From a virus, in the IMG/VR virus record IMGVR_UViG_3300042691_043022, positions 1-28,049 of that record: a DNA stretch of 28,049 nucleotides; one strand, written 5' to 3'. The notes below the pieces were generated by a model. It saw only the letters and a list, made by a program, of their open reading frames with translations, was not told where the DNA came from and searched no databases. A program made the position numbers and the translations under genes. This document shows, piece after piece, positions 534 through 15,829 of the stretch (within the stretch, counting starts at the first letter, position 1; each line of letters begins with the position of its first letter).

Positions 534-3293
534 ATGGTCGTTACGGCGCTGCATCTGGAGAAGGCGCAAGCCAAGCCTGCACGTTGCCAGACCTGCCCGG
601 GCTATGCCTGGGGGACTCACGGTTACATGGCGAAGCCCGACGGGAAGTCCGACCTCGGGGTGCTCCTCGTCACTGAGGCATTGTCGGATGTTGATGCTGA
701 GCATGGCAAGCCCTTTCAGGGGCGGGCCGGCTTGGCACTAGACCAGATGCTCCAGCGGGGAGATCTCCGCCGGGAGCAGTTTCTCATCGACAGCACGTTG
801 AGGTGTGTGCCGCCCCGAGGGGAGAAAGGGGTGTTGCTGTATGGGCGTGACGAGGTCGCGGCCTGCGGGCATCACCTCGACGCCACTATCGCCCTGCACC
901 GGCCCCGGGTGATTGTCCCCCTGGGGGAGGCCGCCCTTCGCCGAGTGCTGGGGCTCGACTATCTCCCCAAGGGGGAGAAGTTCCTGACGCGTCGTGGCTA
1001 CCCCGAGTGGAGCATCCGCTACAACGCGTGGGTGGTGCCGACCTTCGCCCCGAGTTGGCTGATGTCGGGGCAGCGGCATCTGACACCGGTCTTTCTGGCG
1101 GATCTCCGCAAGGCGATGAGGATTGCGAAGGAGGGGTTCGCCCCCCTGCACGCCCGCCTCATCAGCGACCCGTCGCTGGACACGGTGGAGCGATTCGTTG
1201 GCGACTTCGAGCGAGCGCTCGCCGCTGGCGAGGATGTCTCCTTGGCCTATGACATCGAAACCCCCTACAAGGCGGACGCAGACGATGAAGGCAGTCTGGA
1301 AATCGACGACCCTACCTACATCATCCTCCGGATTGGCTTCGCCTGGAGAGACACCGAAGCTTTGTCGCTGGCTTGGGAGCCTCACTACCTGCCGTATATC
1401 GGTCGGTTGCTCTCCAGCCATGCCCGGAAGCTCACCTGGAATGGGCGGTATGACGCCCCCAGAGTGGCCCGGGCAGGTTTTCCTGCCGCGGGGGAAGAAC
1501 ACGACCTGATGTGGGCGTTCCACATCCTGGAGTCGGACAAGCCGAAGGGGTTGGGGTTTGTTGCCTCCTACCTACTCCATGAAGTCCCCCGGTGGAAGCA
1601 CCTCGCGAACAACGAGCCGGGGAAATACAACGCCCTCGACGCCTTGGTGACCAAGCGCCTGGAGGGCGCCATCATCCCGGCGCTGAAGGCGACCGAACAA
1701 TGGTCGGTGTTTGATCGACACATTGTGAAGCTCGACCGGATTCTGGACGCGATGTCGAAACGGGGGGTCAGGCAGAATGCGACCGCCCGCGTGGAGTTCG
1801 CACGGAGGTTTGCTGCCGAGCTGGATGTCATCACCGCCAAGATGGCGGCGGCGATCCCGCCTGCGGCTCGCCGTCAGAAGGTCTACAAGACGAAACCGAA
1901 GGACACGACCACCGGGGAGTTCATCACCCGGGAGGTGGTGAAGGCGCTGCCAGTGTGCAGCAGCTGTGGACTGGAAAAACCGAAGAAGGACCATTTCAAG
2001 CTCTACAAGAAGAAGGTCAACCCCTGCGCCGGGGCGGAAGTCGTGGCGTCGATGAGACCCAAGCAAGAGTGGGTCCGCTTGGAACCCTTCGTCCCGAGTA
2101 ACGACCAACTGAAGCGGTACCTGGAGTTCAAGGGCCACCAGGCGATCATCGACCGGGGGTCCAGGGCCCCGACGTTTAATCTCTTGGCGCTGAAGAAGTT
2201 GTGGGCGAAGTACGACACCGATCCGGTGTACCCGCTGGTGGCGGAGTATCGGGAGGTGGAGACCATCCTAGCACGGTATCTGGGGTGGCCCGTGCAGGTT
2301 GCGACGGGAGAGTGGGGAGTGCAGGGGGGTATGCCTGTCGGACACGATGGGCGGATTCACACCACCTTCCTTCATAACCCGTCGACGCTGCGCCTCTCAT
2401 CGCAGGCCCCGAACCTCCAGAACATGCCGCGAGGCGGGAAGAGTGAGGTCCAGAGCAGTGTCAAGAAACTCATCGTGGCTGACCCCGGAGAGGAACTCTT
2501 CGAGCTTGACTACAAGGCGATTGAGGCTGTCCTCGTGGGTTACCTGGCGAGGTCGGCGCGGTATGTTCGCCTGGCGAAACTTGGCGTCCACGACTTCCTC
2601 AACGCTCACATTCTCATCCGGGAAGGGAAGATCAGCGCAGAGTCCCGACCAGAGTTGGCGTGGAGTGACGCCGACCTCAAGGCACTCTTCAAAGACCTGA
2701 AGACACACTTCGACCACGAGCGGAATATCGCCAAGAGGATCGTGCACCTCAGCAATTACGGAGGGACCCCTCATCGCATCCGGGAGTCGAACCCGGAGTT
2801 GTTTCCGACGATCCGCCATGCGGCATCCCTACAGGGCCTCTACTTTGAGGTGTGTCCCGAGATCCGGCGCTGGCAGCAGGAGAGTGTGGAAAGGGCCGAC
2901 AACGGCGCCCAGATGCGCAATGCCTTCAACTACGTCCATCACTTTTTCCATGTGAAGGAGTGGTTCAGGCATGACGGGCGATGGGAGTGGAAGTGGGGAG
3001 AGGACGCCAAGGCGGTGCTCGCCTTCCAACCACAGAGTCTCGCCGCGGCTATCATCAAGGAGGCGATGATTAGGATCGACGAGGCGGGGTATGGGGACTA
3101 TCTCCTCCTGCAGGTGCATGACTCCCTGCTGGGGCGCGCACCGAAGACGCAGGTCGATGAGGTGCAGGCCACCATTCAGCGCATCATGGAAGAGCCAGTT
3201 CCCCAACTGCCGATGTCGGTGCTGGGGGACGAGGGCTATCTGCAAATCGAAGTCGAAGGGAAGAGAGGGACCGTATGGGGAGAGATGAAGTGA
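534..3293 (+). CDS. Family A DNA polymerase with N-terminal 4Fe-4S UDG-like domain and 3'-5' exonuclease
   Basis: Replicative phage polymerase of 919 aa. Residues ~1-205 resemble a family-4/5 uracil-DNA glycosylase: four cysteines placed like the iron-sulphur ligands (C18, C21, C91, C111) and a GKPFQGRAG motif at 58-66. The usual GE(A/G)PG motif reads TEALS (47-51), and the HPS motif reads APS (172-174), so glycosylase activity is doubtful. Residues ~230-395 are a DnaQ-like proofreading exonuclease with Exo I D240/E242, Exo II N303/D307 and Exo III Y365/D369. The polymerase domain has motif A D659 (ELDYKAIE), motif B R730, K734, Y742, G743, and motif C H862-D863. The position matching E. coli Phe762 is His738, and motif C is HDS instead of HDE. 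A C475-x2-C478...H487...C498 insert precedes the palm. A UDG-polymerase fusion is known from phage SPO1 and of similar size. The start has only a weak ribosome binding site. It overlaps the ATPase gene by 19 bases. Confidence 0.95.
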   Translation: MVVTALHLEKAQAKPARCQTCPGYAWGTHGYMAKPDGKSDLGVLLVTEALSDVDAEHGKPFQGRAGLALDQMLQRGDLRREQFLIDSTLRCVPPRGEKGVLLYGRDEVAACGHHLDATIALHRPRVIVPLGEAALRRVLGLDYLPKGEKFLTRRGYPEWSIRYNAWVVPTFAPSWLMSGQRHLTPVFLADLRKAMRIAKEGFAPLHARLISDPSLDTVERFVGDFERALAAGEDVSLAYDIETPYKADADDEGSLEIDDPTYIILRIGFAWRDTEALSLAWEPHYLPYIGRLLSSHARKLTWNGRYDAPRVARAGFPAAGEEHDLMWAFHILESDKPKGLGFVASYLLHEVPRWKHLANNEPGKYNALDALVTKRLEGAIIPALKATEQWSVFDRHIVKLDRILDAMSKRGVRQNATARVEFARRFAAELDVITAKMAAAIPPAARRQKVYKTKPKDTTTGEFITREVVKALPVCSSCGLEKPKKDHFKLYKKKVNPCAGAEVVASMRPKQEWVRLEPFVPSNDQLKRYLEFKGHQAIIDRGSRAPTFNLLALKKLWAKYDTDPVYPLVAEYREVETILARYLGWPVQVATGEWGVQGGMPVGHDGRIHTTFLHNPSTLRLSSQAPNLQNMPRGGKSEVQSSVKKLIVADPGEELFELDYKAIEAVLVGYLARSARYVRLAKLGVHDFLNAHILIREGKISAESRPELAWSDADLKALFKDLKTHFDHERNIAKRIVHLSNYGGTPHRIRESNPELFPTIRHAASLQGLYFEVCPEIRRWQQESVERADNGAQMRNAFNYVHHFFHVKEWFRHDGRWEWKWGEDAKAVLAFQPQSLAAAIIKEAMIRIDEAGYGDYLLLQVHDSLLGRAPKTQVDEVQATIQRIMEEPVPQLPMSVLGDEGYLQIEVEGKRGTVWGEMK

Positions 3294-4654
3294 GGCCTGG
3301 GGTGGCACCCGCAGCGGCGCCGGAGCAGGACACTGCGGCGGAGATCCGCGCCATCATTGCGAAGTCGAAGTCCACAGTGATTTCCAACTTCAGCCCGGCG
3401 GATGCTGACACTCGCTACGGGGGGTTGTTTGAGACGCTCGGCACACGTCGGGGATATATCTTCAACGCCACCGATCGGTGGGCGACAGTCGACAACTACT
3501 GGACGCCGAAGCTGACCCTCGGGAAGATCGACCTCGACACCGTCGACGATGACGATGACGACGATGACCCGTTTGCGAAGCTAGCGGAGGCGGTCGCCGC
3601 TAGTGCTGCCGAGCAAGCAGCAATGCTGGACCTCGCGAAGAAAGACCTCCACAACCCCACCCAGTGGCTGGTGAACAAGCTGGAGCTGTTGGGGTTTAAG
3701 GTCTTGGCGGCAGGGGTGCCGGGGCCACCACGCTATCCCAGTTCAGATCTCCTTCTGGAGACTCCTGGTGCGCTGATCGCCTTCAACCGTACGGGGGACT
3801 CCCTTAGTGTCGCCCTGCTGGCGGACAACCTCAAACGCCTCGACGAGGTGCATGGGAACCTTCGGGTGGCGTTCCCGGAGAAGGCTCGCCCGGCGATTGT
3901 CGCCGCTGATGGTACCCCCCGCTGCACGGTGTCGTTCTGGAGCTACGGGCAGCATGGGCCGGATGTCACGCCGCGGAATCTGGAGGTCGTGGACTGGGAG
4001 AAGTCGCGATTCAACTACCCGGTCGAGACCCAGAAGGCGCTGGAGAACCTGATGGCGTGGCAGCCGGCTCGTTCCGGGCAACTCCTCCTGTGGCATGGGC
4101 CTCCCGGCACCGGCAAGACCTGGGGAATCCGCGCCCTGGCGTGGGCGTGGAGGGAGTGGTGTACCGTGCACTACGTGATGGACACGGCGAACCTCCTGTC
4201 AGGTCCCCCGGCCTACACCAAGGCGTTGTTTCTCCACACTGACCGGGGGAGAAAGGAAGGTAAGGCGCAGCCCAAGTGGCGACTGGTTGTGCTGGAGGAC
4301 GCTGGGGAGTTGATCTCCCAGGATGCGCGGGAACAGGCCGGGCAGGGACTCTCCCGACTCCTGAACATCGCCGACGGGTTGCTCGGGCAGGGCAGCCGCA
4401 CTGTGATGCTGATCACGACGAATGAGAACATCGACGCTCTGCACCCGGCGATCAAACGCCCGGGAAGGTGCCACGCGAATGTCAACTTCCCGACGTTCGG
4501 CACCCGCGAGGCGAACACCTGGTTTCAGGCGAGTGGGGTGGACTACACCACGGCTCGTCCCATGACCTTGGCAGAGATGTTCGAGCAGCGGGATAGCCGC
4601 CTCCAGCAGGTGGAGGTGGGCAAGGTGAAGGAGAAAGCGATGGGGTTCAAGTGA
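3275..4654 (+). CDS. AAA-family ATPase
   Basis: ATPase of 459 aa with Walker A GPPGTGKT (275-282, Lys281), a Walker B ending in E341-D342 (VVLEDAGE), sensor-1 Asn383 (TTNEN) and an RPGR arginine-finger segment (395-398). The LED form of Walker B and the HPAIKRPGR block resemble BCS1-type AAA proteins. From memory they also resemble actinobacterial ATPases annotated with DUF5925 (GLSRLLN...DGLLGQG block). The N-terminal ~270 residues are a separate mixed domain with an eight-residue poly-Asp stretch near residues 91-98. The start codon lies inside the end of the polymerase gene and follows a good ribosome binding site (AGAGAGGG), so the two are translationally linked. A helicase-loader, clamp-loader-like or other DNA-remodelling role fits the position but is inferred. 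Confidence 0.9.
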   Translation: MGRDEVRPGVAPAAAPEQDTAAEIRAIIAKSKSTVISNFSPADADTRYGGLFETLGTRRGYIFNATDRWATVDNYWTPKLTLGKIDLDTVDDDDDDDDPFAKLAEAVAASAAEQAAMLDLAKKDLHNPTQWLVNKLELLGFKVLAAGVPGPPRYPSSDLLLETPGALIAFNRTGDSLSVALLADNLKRLDEVHGNLRVAFPEKARPAIVAADGTPRCTVSFWSYGQHGPDVTPRNLEVVDWEKSRFNYPVETQKALENLMAWQPARSGQLLLWHGPPGTGKTWGIRALAWAWREWCTVHYVMDTANLLSGPPAYTKALFLHTDRGRKEGKAQPKWRLVVLEDAGELISQDAREQAGQGLSRLLNIADGLLGQGSRTVMLITTNENIDALHPAIKRPGRCHANVNFPTFGTREANTWFQASGVDYTTARPMTLAEMFEQRDSRLQQVEVGKVKEKAMGFK

Positions 4655-5235
4655 GCGCACTGAGGATTGGAGTCGATGTCGATGGGGTCCTGGCGCAGTT
4701 CACCCGCGCCTACGCCCAGCTCATCAAGACCCGAACCATGAAGGTCATCCCGGAGGATGCCCATACGTGGAACTGGGCGCGCGCTCACGGCATCACCAAG
4801 CAGGAGGAGGACGACGCGTGGAAGTGGATCAAGGCGAATGGCTGGTGGTGGGGGACCTTTGACCCGTACGACACGGCGGAACTTGCGCCGCTGCTTCGGG
4901 CGTGGGAACACGCAACGGACCTCTATTTCATCACCTCCCGGCCGGGGGCAGGAGTACAGCGCACCACAGCGTTGTGGATTCGGGAGCACTTCGCTGTGGG
5001 GAACCCCCATGTGCTGATCGCCCAACGCCCGTCCGACAAGGCGGATATCGTGACGGGGCTGGGGTTGACCCACTTCGTCGACGACAAGGCGGAGACTGTC
5101 GTGGAGGTGATGGATGCCTATCCGCGTTGCGCTACGCGACTCCTCACCCGGCCGTGGAATGAAGAGGCCGGACAACTCGGTAACTGGCGTATTGCTCGCC
5201 TGAATGAACTAGTAGAAATTGAGGTGCCCGCATGA
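4651..5235 (+). CDS. HAD-superfamily 5'-nucleotidase (5'(3')-deoxyribonucleotidase type)
   Basis: Protein of 194 aa with HAD motif I DVDGV (nucleophile D9, acid/base D11), motif II ITSRP (T95/S96), a lysine-containing segment SDKAD, and motif IV VDDKAE (D144/D145). This is the layout of the NT5C-type phosphatases that remove phosphate from (deoxy)nucleoside monophosphates, and the length is typical of the family. GTG at 4651 overlaps the stop codon of the ATPase (GTGA), so translation is coupled. In a replication operon it would act on cytoplasmic dNMP pools, for instance to remove dUMP/dTMP or to recycle nucleotides. The precise substrate cannot be read from the sequence. Confidence 0.85.
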   Translation: MSALRIGVDVDGVLAQFTRAYAQLIKTRTMKVIPEDAHTWNWARAHGITKQEEDDAWKWIKANGWWWGTFDPYDTAELAPLLRAWEHATDLYFITSRPGAGVQRTTALWIREHFAVGNPHVLIAQRPSDKADIVTGLGLTHFVDDKAETVVEVMDAYPRCATRLLTRPWNEEAGQLGNWRIARLNELVEIEVPA

Positions 5236-7817: not shown

Positions 7818-7852
7818 GACTCCATTATATAGTGGATGGCGAATTTCTAGTC
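7818..7852 (-). promoter_or_regulatory. Candidate promoter for the phosphoesterase cluster
   Basis: Reading the minus strand, a perfect TATAAT (7829 down to 7824) lies 26 bases before the phosphoesterase start. A -35 element at the usual spacing is poor (GACTAG at 7852-7847). The AT-rich stretch stands out in otherwise GC-rich DNA and is one of the only gaps between genes on the minus strand. Just downstream, GGAGTC (7804-7809) and GACTCC (7818-7823) form a six-base stem whose loop carries most of the Shine-Dalgarno sequence, so the leader could fold over it. Confidence 0.4.
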
Positions 7853-7867
7853 GCGAATTTTCGCCAT
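7836..7867 (-). repeat. Inverted repeat across the stop codon of the giant gene
   Basis: ATGGCGAA (7836-7843) and TTCGCCAT (7860-7867) are a perfect eight-base inverted repeat. The 16-base loop contains the TAG stop (7849-7847) of the giant protein gene. There is no T run after it on the minus strand, so it is not a standard intrinsic terminator. It could protect the 3' end of the long transcript or weakly terminate it. Confidence 0.5.
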
Positions 7868-10800
7868 CACCTTGGCGGTCATCTCCTCCACGACATCCGG
7901 GAGGGGGCGCGCGCCGACGGCGTGCTGGTCCAGTTCAGCGTCGATGGATTTCTTCTCCTGCCACGACGGAGAGGCGTTGATCACCCCGAGGATGGCGTCG
8001 GTGGTATCCCACCGGGCGTCGCTTTTGCGAAGTTCCCGCATGGCCTCCACGGCGGCGCCGATCCAGGTCCGACCGGCGCTAGCGCTCTGCGCCTTCTTCA
8101 GCAGGGCCATCTTGATGGTGGCGTCGGGTCCGAGTGCGGCGAGATGCGGGATGGTGGGGACTTCCACGGCGCCGCCAGAGGCGGTGGGGAGCATCGACGG
8201 CGGGGGGACCCCCTCCCGGGGAATGTCCGTCGCCAGCGCCCGCTTGACGGTGGCCATCACTCGCTGGTTGCGGAAGACCTTTGCCAGCCAGGCGTCGTTG
8301 AGCTTCGTGGGGAGGACACTCAGGTCCGGCTGACCGTCGGGCATGTAGATGTCGCGGGGGAGTTCCTCACCCCCGATGACCCGCTCCCGGAGGTCGCTCT
8401 CGGCTTGCTCGCCGCGGGCGCGGCCCTCGGCGTAGGTGCGCGCCACGGCCCTCGCGGCATTGCGCTCGCGGTTGACGTTGTGGACAACCGAGCCGAAGAG
8501 CAGCCGGGGGACAATGCCCGAGTCGAGGCCGGACTCTTCCAGCTGTTCCCGGGCGCCGGCCGTGACCTGCGAGAAGGGGGGAAGGCTCCCGATAGCGTTC
8601 ACCGCGTGACCCACGACCTTCTCCCCGGCGCTCGCCGTGGGCGGCACAATGCGTCGGCCAGTGGCAAAGTCGGTGTTGGCGGCGATTTCAAACGGCATCA
8701 CCATCGCCGGATTGACGAGGCCCACCCAGAACTGCCGAGCCTGTGCCGCCATATCCTCGGCGATGTCGGCGGTGTCGCTCTTGCCCTTGATGTAGTCAGC
8801 CAGGCGGTTGAGACTCCCGGCGGCGCCGACCGAGCGCGCAGTGATGTTGGCGGGAGTCGGGAAGCCGATGTAGGTGAGATCCCACTCCTGGCGCTTTTCA
8901 TCCCACCCGGTGGGGACCAGGATGTGGAACTGCTCGCGCTCCCAGGTGGCGAGGTCGTTTTCCGCGTCGGGGAAGAAAGTCTGGTTCCACATCACCCCAG
9001 CCGCAGCGAAGGGGGCGATCCGCGCCCAGCGGTGGGCGGCGTCACGATTTGGTGTGAGATTCCCCGTGTCGGTCAGCCGCAGTGGCGCATAACTCTCAAA
9101 CGACTTCTTGGTGAAAGTCCAGAAGGGAACGAAGATCGAGCGCAGCCAGCGGGCTTCCCACGGGGTGAGGTCGTTGTAGTCGTAAATGGCGTTGAGGACG
9201 ACCTTCCCGGCCTGGGCGTCGGTCAACCCCTTGCTCACTTCGTGATTGAACCGCGCGATGCGGTTGATGCCTTCGGTGAAGTCACGTACCGAGTTGTAGA
9301 AGGCATTCATGCGCGTGAACTTCGTCTGGACGTCGTTCACGACATCCACAGTGAGGTCGCGAGCCGGCGACTGCGCCCGGCCAGGGAGGTTGGTGAGAGT
9401 CCGCAGGCGCGGGTCAGCCAACACCTGCTGACTCACATCAGCGGCGGCAGAGCGGATGCCAATGTTGGCGGTCTCCGCGCGGGAGGCGAAGTCCCACAGA
9501 TTCTGGCGAGGACCGGCACTCCCCGGCCGGTCGAAGCTGAAAGCCTTCATGCCACTGGCAGCGATGCCCTTCGGCATGTCGCGCAGGCCGAGGGTCAGCC
9601 ACTCCTGGTAGGGCGTCGAGGCGAAGTTGTTAGAGGTGTCGCCGAGGACGTTGTTGGCGAAGTAGCCCCCCAGGGTCGAGCGGATGAGGTAGCCCTTCTC
9701 GAAATTGGTAACGGCGCGGCTGATCCGTTCCCACGGCTGCGGGGCGGCGAAGCGCACGGTCAGTTCATCGGCCACCGGCTCCGGCAGCACATAGATCGAG
9801 TTGACATTCTGCGGATCGAACTGGAATTTCTTGTAGCCTGCAGGCACCGTCATCGCCGCAGGCTGAAGACCCTTGCCGTAATTCGGGTCGTACACCTGCG
9901 CGAGGTTGTCGATGAGGGTGATCTTCGCCGACTCGATGTGGTGCTGTACGAGGCGGGCGCCGACGGTCTTCGCGTAGTCGTTCCAGGTCTGCTTAATGGA
10001 GCCGGTGGTCGTGGAACGGCCCTCCGACCGGAACTGCGAGAAGCGCTTCTTCGCCTTGGCCCAGCGGCCCGTGGCGCCCCCGGGGGTGGTCTGCGCCTCA
10101 CTCGCGAAGTCGAGGACAATGTCGGGGAGGTAGGTGTCGTCGGCGAGGATCGACGCGGGTTGCTTGCCTTGCTGGACCTCGATCTGCGCGATGGCCTTCA
10201 TCGCCGCGAGGTGGCGGTCCATGGCTTCCTGCACCTGCGCTGCCCAAGGCTTCGACTTCAGGTCAGCAATCAGGCCGTTGAGGACGTTTTCAGTTTCCTG
10301 AACCGTCGCCCCCATGAGGTAGGTCTTGTTCTGGGTACCGGCAGCCAGGGCCCGCCGCTCCAGCGCCAGGTTCCGGCGCAGGCGAATGATCTCGAAGAAG
10401 GCCTTGTACTGCTCGGCGCTCTCCAGCGGGGAGAGGATGTGGCGCAGAGTCTCGCCGGACTTCTGGGCGCCGGCGTAGAAGTCGTCGTGGAGTTTGCTGA
10501 TGGCCCGCACAGCGTCGGCAGACTGCACGCCAAGACCGCGCATGCTCCGCGTCAGCTTCGCGAAGGGGACGAAGGCGTCGGCCACGGCGGCCTTCCAGCC
10601 GGCCACGACGGCGCCGGGCGTCCGCGCCGGGGGGTCGTTGGCTTCGATCTGCTGGAAGACCTTCTCCCCCATCGCCTTAATGCGGGCGTCGGTGTCGCGG
10701 AGGAGGTAGCGCTCATAGACGCCGATCGGCGTGGAGCCGACGAGGGCGCCGGCGAGGGCGCCGTAAAGCGCCGTGCGGCGCTTCTCCTCCGGCGTGGTAC

Positions 10801-13800
10801 CGAGCTGGCTGCCGATGGCGCCGCCAGCGACAGCTCCCACGGCCGTGGAGCCCATCTTCGCGGCAAGGCGTGGATCAACCGCCCCCCGCTCGAAGCCAAG
10901 CTTCATGACCGACTCCCGCATGGCAGGGGTGACGGTCACCATCTTGCCCTCGACGGTCGGGGAGGAGAAGTCGCCGCCCATGTAGGAGCCGCCGACAGGG
11001 CCGTCAAGCGACAGCTCGCGGATCACGCCCCGGGGGAGACTCGCATTCTGCAGCGACGCCCCGAAGCGCTTCAGGAGCTTGTTGACCCGGTCGGGCACGA
11101 CGGTGTCGTAGAAGTGGAGGTTGCCCTTTTGGGTTTTCGACAGGGCCTGCTCCACGTCCATGAATCCGCTCTGCGGTGCGTCAGGGTCTGCGTCTGCGGC
11201 AAGAATCGGGCGTGCAGCTTCACCAAACACCTCTGGGGTATCACCCGGGTAGTAGGTGTTGACGAGAATCTCCTGCCCCTGTGCGTTTGTGCTATAGACC
11301 TTCACCCCGTCGGGAGTGTTTTCCCAGCGCATGGCGATGCCCGGAGGCGCCCCGTAGCGCGCCGCCTGCTCCCGTCCCCCAGTGAAAAACACCCCATCGT
11401 AGCCTTCCTCCGCCGCCAGGCGGATGATCCGCTTCAGGGCGAAGTTCTGCCAGTCCATGCCGCCCGGGGCGGTGGAGAAGGGAGCGTCGACGACAGGATG
11501 ACCTGCGTGACCCTCGCGACTAGGGTCCCAGTCACCAGCCTGTTGCCGCAGCTTCGCGCCTTCGAGTGTAGCGATGGGTTCGCCAGTGCCGCGCCGCCGC
11601 CGCAGCTCCTGCTGCAGGTCGGACTGGATCTCCTCCACGACGAGGACCTTGCGCCCACTGGGGAGGATGCGGTCGGTGGTGCGGATGTGCAGCAGAGGGG
11701 CAGCGTTGTTTCGCCCAATAGCATCATTCACCGCTGCAGTAAACTCTGGAGAGTCAAACATCGCATCGGCGGAAACTCCCCGCATCTCGGGCTCAAGTCC
11801 CGAGCGTCCTGGTTCCCAATTGTGCGACTCGAAAAGCCCCTTGTGGCTCGGCAGCGTGGCAATGAACTCCCGGTAATTCTCGTCGCTGGTGCGGTAGCGG
11901 CTGTACCCACTCCCACCATAGACAGGAGCGTTCGGGTTTTCAATTGCGCGCTGAAGGTTCCACAACTCGCGCCCAAGGTCATCAGCGATGCCCCACAGCG
12001 TCGTCCCGTCAAGACGTGCAGTCGTCTCCAGGCCATCACGCAGGGCTTCTCCTGCAATGACGGTCATGTCCGCGCGCGTTTGTGCCCGCTGCGCACGCTG
12101 GAATGCTGACTCCAGCACATGATGCCGTTCGGCGAGTGGAATGCGCTGCACCGACGGAAGAGCGTAGGCGATGTCGTAGAATTCCTGCTTCTTGTTGTAA
12201 AGGGTCGTGCCTCCCAGGCGCACCTCCTCCACCTTGATCTCATTCAGGTCGAGGAACTGCTGGACCTCCTCCTGGGTGACCTTCTTCTGGCCGCGCTCGG
12301 CGAGCCAGTCGGCGAAGCCGGTCCACTTGATTTCCTCAGGTGAGGCGAGACTCTTCACCCGTGCGGCAAGGGACGCGGCATTGAGGGCCTTCGCGCCGGT
12401 CTTGGCGAAGACCGACATTGCGCCACGGGTCAGCCGGGAGTAGAAGCCTGGGATAGGGACGGCTGCGGCCATCGCCAGTTCCTTCTGGTCCTCTGGCGCA
12501 GCGGCGTAAGCCGCGGCACTGGCAACACCCCCACCGATCATGTCGGTGAGGAAAGCCCGCGGGCCGCGCTCATCCTCGGCAGCGATCTCCTTGATGTGCT
12601 TGATGACCTGGCCCTGGTCGTCAGGGGAGAGGTCGTCAAAGTTCGCGCCGCTACGGCGGTACTCCGCTCGCGCGGCGTCCTCCCACATCTTCGGAGGTGG
12701 GGGGCCGTCCACGACAGCGGGAGCCTTGGCCGTGCCCTCAACAGCGACACTGCCGTCGGGGCGACGCAGGGTGGGCTTCGCCGGCGGCTGCGCCGCAGGC
12801 GCAGCCTGCACCGTGGTGTCGTCGCCAAAACTGATCTCCCCGACATCCACGACCGCCTTGGGGTCACGCTTCGACTTACGCGCCTTTGGCGTAGCGTCAA
12901 CGCTGGGGACAGCACCGAGGTTGGCGGCAACTTGTGCCGCCGTGCCATCCATCTCGCCGGCGATCTTCGCCGCCAGGTATTTTGCTGGGAGTTGGGGGCC
13001 CATCCGACGGGCGTTTTCTGCACTCTCCATCAGGGCGCGCTGCGCAGCCTCCGCCGGGTCTTCGCCGAACTCTCGCGCCGGCTTCTGCTTCTGGATTGGT
13101 GCAGGCGCAGTCTGCGCCATCCCAGGGGCTTGCGCAGGCGTCGCCGCCGCGGCCTTCGACGCAGCGCGCTCCTGCTGGCGCATTGCCGTCGCGACGTCGT
13201 CGACGGCCAACTCATAGGGGGTGAGAGCCGCTTCCATCCGCTGGAAGTTGGAGTACGCGTCGGCAATCTCCTGGTGGTAGCCTTCGGGGATAGTCGCGAT
13301 GTCAGTCGTGACAGCAGCCTTGAGAGCTTTCGCCCGCTCGTAGTCCCCGGCATTGACCGCCGCCTGGAAAGCGCGGAACGACTCGAAGCCTTCCGGGTCG
13401 GGGCCTTCGACGATGCGTGGAGTCTCGGTCACCGTCGTGGGCGCCGCCACCCGTGGCTTGCTCCCCGCTGGCTGCGCCACCTCCTGCCCGGTCCACGACT
13501 CCCGCATCGGGTCGAAGATCTCGACCGTCGCCCCCGGCTTGGGAACACGACCATTCTTCGTCGGCAGGGCGGCGTCATCAGCCACCCTCACCAGCACCAG
13601 ACCATCACGGTAGGCCATGCCGGGGCCGACCTTCGCCTTCGCGGCGTCGATGTCGGAGAGGAACTCGAAGTGGGGTTTCTTCCCGCGCTCGGCGAAGGCT
13701 CGTAGCTGCGCCTCGGGGAGATAGGCGTAGGAGTAGCCAGCCTCGTGGCGAGTGTAAGGAAGGCGCCCGGTGCGGCGGTACCACGCGGCAGCGAGGGCGC

Positions 13801-15829
13801 CGGCAGAGCCCGCCATCAGACCGGCCCGGAGCAGGTCATCCTGCTCCGACTCCGGGTCGTCAGGCACAGCGGCGGCCAGGGCCGCCGGCGCCAGGTGCGC
13901 GCCGAACTCGAAGTCGGGAGGCACAACTCCCTGAGTCTTCTTCTTCTTCTTGGCCTGAGCTTCCTGAGCCATCGCCTCCAACGCCGCAACCGCACGGTCG
14001 TGACGAAGGTCTTCGTCGGTCCTGACCAGTTTCGGCGCAGCGCTCGCCGGCGCGAGGGCCTTCGCCTGGATGTTGTTGGCGATCAGCCGCTGGGCTTCGG
14101 CGCCCGTGAGGTCGTTGACTTGCGCAGGGGAATAACCCATCTTGGCGAGCTTGCGGGCCTCGCCGGCATTGGGCTTGCGCTCGGCGTCGAGGTTGATGGT
14201 CTCGGCCTGGAGTTGAGCCGGCTCCACAGCCAGTGGCGGCGCTTCAGGCGCAGGCCCGCCAGGAAGGCCCTTCTCCTTGGTGTTGCGGAAGGGTAGGCGG
14301 CGCTGCCCCTTCGGGGCCACGACATTGCCCACGACCGGGGGGACCTCTTCAGGAAAGAGCGGTCCCGAGGGAGGCGCCTGAGTCCGCCACACCTCGTCAA
14401 AGGGAAGAGGCTGCTGACCAGCCGGGGGCAGGGGGTCAGCGCTCGCAGGCGCAGCCACCGGCTGCGCCTCGTCAAAGCGCAGGGGGAGTTGCTCGCCCAC
14501 GACAGGGGGAGGTGCCGGCGCAGTCGGAGGCGCAGCCACCCGCTTGCCAAAGAGTGGCAGCTGCCAGGGATCCGGCGGCGTGACGAGATCGCGCGGGGGC
14601 ATGCCGGGGAGCAGCTGCTGGCCAGACGGCGGCGGCTGCACCCACTCCGGCGGTGCCTTCGACACCTCTCCCCCCTCGAAGGGGAAGGAGTAGTTGCCCA
14701 CGGCCCGGCCATTCTCCAGCCCCATACGGTGGAACTGTGCGACGGTGGTGTTGAGGTCAGCGCCCTCGGGGAAGGGCACCAGCGTGCGCTCACCCGACTC
14801 CAGAAGCAGCTCCAGCTGACGCCCCGTGCCGCTGGCAGCTCCAGGGGCGAGCACCCGCGTGGAGACAACCTTCGAGTTGTTGATTTGAGTGGGGGGCAGT
14901 GCGGGAGCAGCCCCAGAGGCGGCTACACCGCCCGAAGCAGCCGGAGTAGCTACCGGCTTGGGCGCCTTGAAGGCAGCGCCAGCGAGGCCCACAGCAGCGC
15001 CTGCACCCTCCGACATGGCGTAGATCGGCGCCCAGTTGGGGTCGCTGCGGTCCACCTTCCCGGTGGCAGCATACTGCTGCGCCGCGACTTGCGCATCATT
15101 CAGAGCGACGTTGCCACCCACCCCGGTGATGAGGCGCGTCAGCTTCGACGCACCGTAGGCGGGCTGCATGTAGCCCTGGGCAGCGCCGATCACCGCTTCG
15201 CCGGCCGCTAGCACGGGGTTGATCTTGCCTGCAGGCGCCGTGCCCGCTGCCTCCGCCTGCGCAATCTGCGCCGCGAGCTGAGTCTCGATGCTCTGGCCCA
15301 CGCCCTGGACAGCACCAATCACGGCGCTAGGGATGGCCGCGCCCTTGGCAGCAATGTAGGGCGCCGCGCCGCCGGCGAAGATCCCCGCCATGCCTTCGGC
15401 TGTGGTGTCGTCCGTCGTGCGCTCAAGGTTGAGCAGCCCACCGGAAGCACCATACGCAAGCCGCTTCAGTGGGTCCACGACCCCGACTTCAGCAGCAAGC
15501 GCCGCCTGAGCAGGGAAGCGCATCCCCGCACCCTGCGCCTCAACAAACGCGCTATCCACCTTCGGCGGTGCCGGAGGCGCCGACGGCGCCTTCGCAAACA
15601 CCGCCCCAGTACGAAGCGGCCCGGTGGAGCGTGTCTGGTCTAGCTGCGGCACAGGAGGCGCAGCCCCAGCCATCACCGCCAGGTCTTCATCGCGGTCGTT
15701 CACCCACGCCTTGTAGTCCGGATACTTCGTGGTGACCTGCTCAACCAGCCAATCGTCATCCCACGAGGCGTACTCCGCGTACTTCGCCTTGATCTGCTTG
15801 GCGAACTCCTGACGGGTATACTTTGGCAT
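7847..15829 (-). CDS. Giant polyvalent-type virion/ejection protein, 2660 aa
   Basis: One unbroken frame of 2660 codons, last gene of the virion operon. Residues 9-43 form a helical head with two KYxxYxxW units. Residues ~60-700 are largely low-complexity Ala/Pro/Gln linkers containing four QxxLxF-like motifs (Q423, ~Q447, ~Q472, ~Q509). Ala/Gly-rich membrane-like stretches occur near 680-710, near 1160 and as a glycine zipper at ~1658-1703 (AVGAVAGGAIGSQLG). Around 1290-1600 lies a block with VEEIQSDLQQE (about 1398), DWQNFALKRIIRLAAEEGYD and FYDTVVPDRVNKL, which I know from large polyvalent phage proteins. At ~2040-2330 another block (GYFANNVLGD, MNAFYNSVRDF, FVPFWTFTKKSFE) resembles the LPD38-type region. 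Such proteins are thought to be packaged and injected with DNA. The start follows the preceding stop by three bases. Confidence 0.85.
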   Translation of the reverse strand: MPKYTRQEFAKQIKAKYAEYASWDDDWLVEQVTTKYPDYKAWVNDRDEDLAVMAGAAPPVPQLDQTRSTGPLRTGAVFAKAPSAPPAPPKVDSAFVEAQGAGMRFPAQAALAAEVGVVDPLKRLAYGASGGLLNLERTTDDTTAEGMAGIFAGGAAPYIAAKGAAIPSAVIGAVQGVGQSIETQLAAQIAQAEAAGTAPAGKINPVLAAGEAVIGAAQGYMQPAYGASKLTRLITGVGGNVALNDAQVAAQQYAATGKVDRSDPNWAPIYAMSEGAGAAVGLAGAAFKAPKPVATPAASGGVAASGAAPALPPTQINNSKVVSTRVLAPGAASGTGRQLELLLESGERTLVPFPEGADLNTTVAQFHRMGLENGRAVGNYSFPFEGGEVSKAPPEWVQPPPSGQQLLPGMPPRDLVTPPDPWQLPLFGKRVAAPPTAPAPPPVVGEQLPLRFDEAQPVAAPASADPLPPAGQQPLPFDEVWRTQAPPSGPLFPEEVPPVVGNVVAPKGQRRLPFRNTKEKGLPGGPAPEAPPLAVEPAQLQAETINLDAERKPNAGEARKLAKMGYSPAQVNDLTGAEAQRLIANNIQAKALAPASAAPKLVRTDEDLRHDRAVAALEAMAQEAQAKKKKKTQGVVPPDFEFGAHLAPAALAAAVPDDPESEQDDLLRAGLMAGSAGALAAAWYRRTGRLPYTRHEAGYSYAYLPEAQLRAFAERGKKPHFEFLSDIDAAKAKVGPGMAYRDGLVLVRVADDAALPTKNGRVPKPGATVEIFDPMRESWTGQEVAQPAGSKPRVAAPTTVTETPRIVEGPDPEGFESFRAFQAAVNAGDYERAKALKAAVTTDIATIPEGYHQEIADAYSNFQRMEAALTPYELAVDDVATAMRQQERAASKAAAATPAQAPGMAQTAPAPIQKQKPAREFGEDPAEAAQRALMESAENARRMGPQLPAKYLAAKIAGEMDGTAAQVAANLGAVPSVDATPKARKSKRDPKAVVDVGEISFGDDTTVQAAPAAQPPAKPTLRRPDGSVAVEGTAKAPAVVDGPPPPKMWEDAARAEYRRSGANFDDLSPDDQGQVIKHIKEIAAEDERGPRAFLTDMIGGGVASAAAYAAAPEDQKELAMAAAVPIPGFYSRLTRGAMSVFAKTGAKALNAASLAARVKSLASPEEIKWTGFADWLAERGQKKVTQEEVQQFLDLNEIKVEEVRLGGTTLYNKKQEFYDIAYALPSVQRIPLAERHHVLESAFQRAQRAQTRADMTVIAGEALRDGLETTARLDGTTLWGIADDLGRELWNLQRAIENPNAPVYGGSGYSRYRTSDENYREFIATLPSHKGLFESHNWEPGRSGLEPEMRGVSADAMFDSPEFTAAVNDAIGRNNAAPLLHIRTTDRILPSGRKVLVVEEIQSDLQQELRRRRGTGEPIATLEGAKLRQQAGDWDPSREGHAGHPVVDAPFSTAPGGMDWQNFALKRIIRLAAEEGYDGVFFTGGREQAARYGAPPGIAMRWENTPDGVKVYSTNAQGQEILVNTYYPGDTPEVFGEAARPILAADADPDAPQSGFMDVEQALSKTQKGNLHFYDTVVPDRVNKLLKRFGASLQNASLPRGVIRELSLDGPVGGSYMGGDFSSPTVEGKMVTVTPAMRESVMKLGFERGAVDPRLAAKMGSTAVGAVAGGAIGSQLGTTPEEKRRTALYGALAGALVGSTPIGVYERYLLRDTDARIKAMGEKVFQQIEANDPPARTPGAVVAGWKAAVADAFVPFAKLTRSMRGLGVQSADAVRAISKLHDDFYAGAQKSGETLRHILSPLESAEQYKAFFEIIRLRRNLALERRALAAGTQNKTYLMGATVQETENVLNGLIADLKSKPWAAQVQEAMDRHLAAMKAIAQIEVQQGKQPASILADDTYLPDIVLDFASEAQTTPGGATGRWAKAKKRFSQFRSEGRSTTTGSIKQTWNDYAKTVGARLVQHHIESAKITLIDNLAQVYDPNYGKGLQPAAMTVPAGYKKFQFDPQNVNSIYVLPEPVADELTVRFAAPQPWERISRAVTNFEKGYLIRSTLGGYFANNVLGDTSNNFASTPYQEWLTLGLRDMPKGIAASGMKAFSFDRPGSAGPRQNLWDFASRAETANIGIRSAAADVSQQVLADPRLRTLTNLPGRAQSPARDLTVDVVNDVQTKFTRMNAFYNSVRDFTEGINRIARFNHEVSKGLTDAQAGKVVLNAIYDYNDLTPWEARWLRSIFVPFWTFTKKSFESYAPLRLTDTGNLTPNRDAAHRWARIAPFAAAGVMWNQTFFPDAENDLATWEREQFHILVPTGWDEKRQEWDLTYIGFPTPANITARSVGAAGSLNRLADYIKGKSDTADIAEDMAAQARQFWVGLVNPAMVMPFEIAANTDFATGRRIVPPTASAGEKVVGHAVNAIGSLPPFSQVTAGAREQLEESGLDSGIVPRLLFGSVVHNVNRERNAARAVARTYAEGRARGEQAESDLRERVIGGEELPRDIYMPDGQPDLSVLPTKLNDAWLAKVFRNQRVMATVKRALATDIPREGVPPPSMLPTASGGAVEVPTIPHLAALGPDATIKMALLKKAQSASAGRTWIGAAVEAMRELRKSDARWDTTDAILGVINASPSWQEKKSIDAELDQHAVGARPLPDVVEEMTAKVMAKIRD

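Follow-up and report, generated by a model that had tools for sequence, protein, structure and literature searches.

A likely pseudo-glycosylase at the N-terminus of a phage family-A DNA polymerase

The stretch of DNA analyzed here (the window) is an incomplete virus record of 28,049 bases. Positions 534 to 3293 on its plus strand encode a protein of 919 amino acids, in which a UDG-like domain is fused to a 3'-5' exonuclease and a family-A DNA polymerase. The UDG domain is of the family-4 type and spans residues 11 to 201 approximately (564–1136, plus strand). It is followed by a DEDDy 3'-5' exonuclease domain (1149–1691, plus strand), in which the catalytic residues D240, E242, D307, Y365 and D369 are present, and by the polymerase domain (1701–3290, plus strand), with D659 and E664 in motif A, R730, K734, H738 and Y742 in motif B, and H862-D863 in motif C. 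Downstream on the same strand lie an AAA ATPase (3275–4654) and an NT5C-like phosphatase (4651–5235).

The original prediction that a UDG-type domain forms the N-terminus of a polymerase is confirmed by profile searches. Residues 37–189 match Pfam UDG better than the cut-off (4.6e-19), and the C-terminal half of the same ORF matches Pfam DNA_pol_A with 100.2 bits (cut-off 34.3). PHROG 17 (DNA polymerase) covers both parts, with residues 36–918 aligned to profile positions 475–1233. Hence, the fusion belongs to an established phage family. The full-length predicted model matches Klenow over residues 206–919 (Z 33). The DNA_pol_A match, the motif A and C aspartates and the DEDDy residues are those of a proofreading family-A polymerase. 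Since all exonuclease and polymerase catalytic residues are present and the model is Klenow-like, these two parts look functional.

The polymerase has two further features of note. An insertion at residues 440–516 or so (1851–2081, plus strand), placed in the thumb region by its position relative to Klenow, carries a CxxC...C pattern (C475, C478, C498) and could be a zinc knuckle. The insertion is common to the window and loci L026 to L031 (CxxCGK...HPC in L026–L029 and L031, CxxC in L030). T7 polymerase binds thioredoxin at the corresponding place of the thumb. In the O-helix, H738 takes the position of Klenow F762. L026, L027, L028, L030, L031 and L099 also have His at this position, and the other polymerases have Phe or Tyr. 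Elsewhere in the window, an ORF of 2660 amino acids on the minus strand (7847–15829) presumably encodes a virion protein, for which the phage collection contains hardly any relatives.

The nearest solved structures by sequence are those of the Thermotoga UDG TM0511 (1l9g/1vk2, E 2e-19), followed by the family-4 UDGs of S. tokodaii and T. thermophilus. We built an AlphaFold2 model of the domain from 60 aligned viral domains (mean pLDDT 90). This predicted model has the UDG alpha/beta fold, in line with the UDG-type domain that had been proposed, with Z scores of 21–23 to family-4 UDGs across about 178–180 residues. TM0511 gives Z 23.4 and 23.2 (the 1vk2 match covers residues 11–200), T. thermophilus UDGa 21.3–21.5, and the S. 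tokodaii and T. thermophilus enzymes together 21–21.5 over residues 11–201. The model also resembles UdgX (Z about 22) and the polymerase of Thermus phage phiLo (PDB 9qhs, Z 15.3).

The four cysteines singled out previously as ligands of a 4Fe-4S cluster are all in place. C18 and C21 form a CxxC (585–596, plus strand) in columns that are 97–100% Cys, C91 lies at 804–806 and C111 at 864–866 on the same strand, and the four columns together are 95–100% Cys in the family. As judged from these aligned positions, the domain probably binds an Fe-S cluster. The score for NCBIfam TIGR00758 (family-4 UDG) is 67.6 bits, below the cut-off of 125.3 bits. This cut-off alone does not separate intact from degenerate domains, because the intact fused domain of L026 also falls below it (77.8 bits), while the intact fused domain of L004 passes.

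The active site has changed extensively (numbering after T. thermophilus UDGa, PMC5387724). Motif 1, GE(A/G)PGExE, reads TEALSDVD (672–695, plus strand; G40 to T47, P43 to L50, G44 to S51, E47 to D54). The uracil-recognizing Asn (N80), present in 58 of 59 relatives, is S87 (792–794, plus strand), and the water-coordinating Asn (N89), present in 53 of 59, is G96 (819–821, plus strand). Motif 2, HPSxLLR, reads APSWLMS (1047–1067, plus strand), so that the catalytic His (H155; 58 of 59 relatives) is A172 and the motif-B Arg (51 of 59) is S178; most of the window's clade reads HPS(Y/F)I(M/L/Q)RG here. Thus, the window has neither the family-4 motif 1 GE(A/G)PG (TEALS, residues 47–51) nor the pair of recognition Asn and catalytic His. 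The change from P to L in motif 1 also occurs in intact relatives (GEALG) and is uninformative by itself. E48 (E41 in T. thermophilus), A49 (for G42) and F61 (F54) are retained. TEALS and APS (172–174) had been read correctly and taken as a loss of catalytic residues. That part stands, and D54, S87, G96 and S178, which had been missed, extend it.

What such losses cost has been measured in UDGa, where N80 recognizes uracil with two hydrogen bonds (N3/O4) and H155 stabilizes the leaving uracilate (PMC5387724). The k2/Km of 2.4e5 decreases to 5.5e3 in N80A (about 44-fold), 3.5e4 in N89A (about 7-fold), 2.0e3 in E47A (about 120-fold) and 94 in H155S (about 2500-fold) (PMC5387724). The motif-B Arg corresponds to R184 in UdgX, which is implicated in substrate binding (PMC10359453). 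Going by these point mutants, uracil excision by the window domain is very unlikely, because N80, N89 and H155 are lost jointly.

The changes concentrate in the active site, a pattern not expected from undirected decay across the whole domain. Of the columns with 95% conservation or more across 59 relatives, five of the six in the active site are altered in the window and none of the nine elsewhere (hypergeometric p 0.002; counts are small and active-site membership is taken from the UDGa literature). At conservation thresholds of 90% and 85% the concentration is similar (p 0.0034 and 0.0036), and at 80% it is weaker (p 0.036). The frame of the UDG region is open, and its GC3 resembles that of the rest of the ORF. 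Sequencing error is an implausible source of the changes, as a minimum of 15 nucleotide substitutions separates codons 47, 50, 51, 54, 87, 96, 172 and 178 from the family residues, or 13 if the two for L50 are left aside.

A motif-based scan of viral contigs yielded 80 loci, most with the UDG domain ahead of an exonuclease. In the fused loci the polymerase either follows within one ORF, or the ORF stops after the exonuclease. Almost all of these loci retain G-E-A-(P/L)-G, Asn and His-Pro. As such a scan is biased toward an intact motif 1, it was rerun with exonuclease patterns only. This yielded 26 loci with both Asn and His (many near-identical), and L205, L206 and L210 without. Single-protein scans of viral contigs with the window polymerase and with the 2660-amino-acid virion protein returned no close relatives, a scan of genome contigs by polymerase patterns returned generic family-A polymerases only, and a scan with the UDG domains of the window and L026 recovered L026 alone. 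L026 is the closest relative by UDG identity (39–40% in the UDG domain; 45% in the polymerase). It shares the thumb CxxC insertion and the NT5C-like gene beside the polymerase. It differs from the window in having GEALG, Asn and HPS...R intact and the polymerase on a separate ORF. Its UDG-exonuclease and polymerase ORFs (L026:4983–8101) lie inside a clade of otherwise single-ORF enzymes; in the same clade, the UDG-exonuclease ORF of L203, L208 and L210 stops at about 515–580 amino acids.

Motif loss in the window is lineage-specific, as its clade is mostly intact. In a tree of the exonuclease region, the window groups with intact domains in a clade supported at 95/92, without a single defined sister; a tree of UDG and exonuclease together places it beside L026–L031 (support 92). 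In the exonuclease tree, the sister of the degenerate L205/L206 is an intact locus, L030 (94/92), and that of L210 is the intact pair L203/L208 (100/98). Degenerate domains also occur elsewhere: in an SPO1-like group (L014, L016, L007 and L022/L023), a PMBT14/Serbin/STP9 group (L017, L018, L015), a Triscuit/KimJongPhill group (L020, L021), a BSTP12/Youna2 group (L009, L019) and a Vibrio phage (L008), with the window as a group of its own. By parsimony, the recognition Asn changed at least six times among the fused rows, including SPO1, and the motif-2 His at least four times over all rows. Alignment against the other UDGs of the locus tables shows, as had been asked of the original prediction, that TEALS and APS are shared by none of them, and in these tables only the window has lost Asn and His with the four cysteines retained. 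The other fused domains without Asn and His (L008, L020, L021) are without the cysteines too.

Several known systems resemble the window in part. SPO1, a phage with hydroxymethyluracil DNA, had rightly been named as carrying a comparable fusion: its gp31 also has an N-terminal UDG domain on an exonuclease and family-A polymerase, and its uracil-reading Asn is likewise replaced by Ser. Unlike the window, gp31 has lost the Fe-S cysteines, retains the motif-2 His and belongs to another lineage. The phiLo polymerase, solved with a modified template, also has a UDG-like N-terminus on a family-A polymerase, but there CxxC, GEAPG, TN and HPS are intact. TM0511 (1l9g/1vk2) and T. thermophilus UDGa (1ui0) share the fold and the four cysteine positions with the window, but stand alone with intact catalytic motifs. 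UdgX shares the fold, but the window has TEALS instead of GEQPG and no KRRIH loop in residues 92–110, and it scores 44.3 bits against the UdgX profile TIGR03914 (cut-off 189.95).

To explain a domain with a preserved fold and a lost active site, we propose that it is a pseudo-glycosylase retained as a non-catalytic module of the polymerase, a reading we hold with moderate confidence. A family-4 UDG would have been fused to a proofreading family-A polymerase of a phage. In the lineage of the window, uracil excision and uracil-specific recognition would then have been lost, with the fold and probably the Fe-S cluster kept. The module may serve as a structural platform for the polymerase; alternatively, it may hold on to the single-stranded template or to partner proteins at the exonuclease end. 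Our computations support this reading with the fusion, the model fold, the cysteines, the focus of changes on the active site, the intact relatives, the repeated losses and one constrained pair of degenerate domains (below). From these we infer an inactive protein, a bound cluster and a particular non-catalytic role.

The domain could instead be a decaying passenger. Once excision is useless the domain would drift, and it would persist because a clean deletion ahead of the exonuclease is rare. Losses of this kind occur in the same clade. L210 (around 4521–5000) has lost the N-terminal half of its fused UDG, including CxxC and motif 1, and keeps a truncated remnant with the HP of motif 2. In L205 (from 2732) and L206 (from 4398) the first 200 or so residues of the family-A polymerase are a weakly recognizable UDG-fold remnant without any motifs or cysteines. 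Because L210 deleted half of the domain, the domain may be dispensable. However, the window keeps its four cysteines and all nine conserved columns outside the active site. In L022/L023, a degenerate pair of another lineage and the opposite case to L210, the UDG domain has a dN/dS of 0.026 at dS 0.26 (adjoining exonuclease 0.18). Hence, strong purifying selection acts on at least one fused domain whose motifs have degenerated. In L015/L017 the UDG dN/dS is 0.136. The motif-free remnant of L205/L206 has a dN/dS of 0.19, near the 0.17 of its exonuclease, though dS is near saturation. Dead but used domains therefore exist, and the window's domain may be one of them; its best relative, at 40% identity, is too distant for a dN/dS of its own. 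Taken together, we consider mere decay unlikely.

We give still less weight to a non-cutting base sensor, which would stall or guide synthesis on binding a modified pyrimidine or uracil in the template. This is the role that had been suggested originally, on the grounds that the cluster is kept while catalysis is lost. E48 and F61 are retained in the pocket, and the Km of the T. thermophilus H155S mutant is near normal (PMC5387724). Yet the uracil-reading Asn is replaced by Ser, N89 by Gly and the motif-B Arg by Ser. With the recognition Asn missing, the case for uracil sensing in particular is weaker. Nor do the cysteines say much about sensing. The fused domains L033, L091, L099 and L207 lack the Fe-S cysteines with catalytic motifs intact, SPO1 has lost them as well but keeps the His, and the window, L007 and L017 show the reverse. 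Because either feature can disappear without the other, retained cysteines are not diagnostic of sensing, and fold stability explains them equally well.

A version of the sensor idea draws support from gene neighborhoods, as several degenerate fusions adjoin thymidylate-synthase homologues (SPO1, LysYB1, PMBT14, Serbin, Triscuit, KimJongPhill). SPO1 also has a dUMP hydroxymethylase as a neighbor; nothing similar is seen in the window fragment. Genes assigned to a deazaguanine-type pathway adjoin the BSTP12 and Youna2 polymerases. Thymidylate-synthase homologues occur in 10 of 14 degenerate records and 3 of 44 intact ones (Fisher 4e-6 on raw counts, where degenerate cases are mostly isolated phages and intact ones mostly metagenome fragments). 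Under phylogenetic control the association is not significant: four independent pairs on supported branches leave the sign test powerless. Hence, the link between inactivation and thymine-modified genomes is suggestive and unproven. L004 is a counter-example, as its intact UDG-polymerase fusion (L004:313–5759, MW202455) has both a thymidylate synthase and a predicted pyrimidine hydroxymethylase as neighbors. Furthermore, neither thymidylate synthase nor dCMP deaminase is found in the 28-kb window fragment (an incomplete genome) or in the 54.7-kb record of L026. Downstream of the L026 polymerase, L026:9049–9387 gives a weak match (5.6e-5, narrowly missing the cut-off) to the Pfam 'nucleotide modification associated domain 1'. 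Bacillus phage SP-15, which has hypermodified thymine, encodes a stand-alone UDG (L005:3959–4537) with the uracil-reading Asn changed to Ser (SSVLPC).

Finally, it is highly improbable that the domain still works as a glycosylase, with its chemistry rewired or on a different substrate: although UDG-superfamily families vary in motif residues and E48 and F61 persist, both Asn, the His and two motif-1 glycines are lost in combination, and no compensating pattern such as the R-loop of UdgX is seen in the window.

The fusion of a UDG to a phage polymerase is itself already known, from SPO1, from the family-4 name 'phage SPO1 DNA polymerase-related protein' and from PDB 9qhs. In the open-access literature searched, we found no description of a set of intact and disabled glycosylases in related polymerases; papers on Thermus phage polymerases, the phage YerA41 polymerase and phage polymerase swapping do not mention the UDG domain. 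A broader reading can be ventured, which we regard as speculative and on balance improbable: phages would repeatedly have turned a tethered uracil glycosylase into a non-cutting module, inactivation being favored where genomic bases are uracil-like or altered and so open to attack by such an enzyme, and the window would mark a phage of this kind. The intact and disabled lineages allow testing whether disabling predicts a modified genome, and what a repair fold gives to replication without excision.
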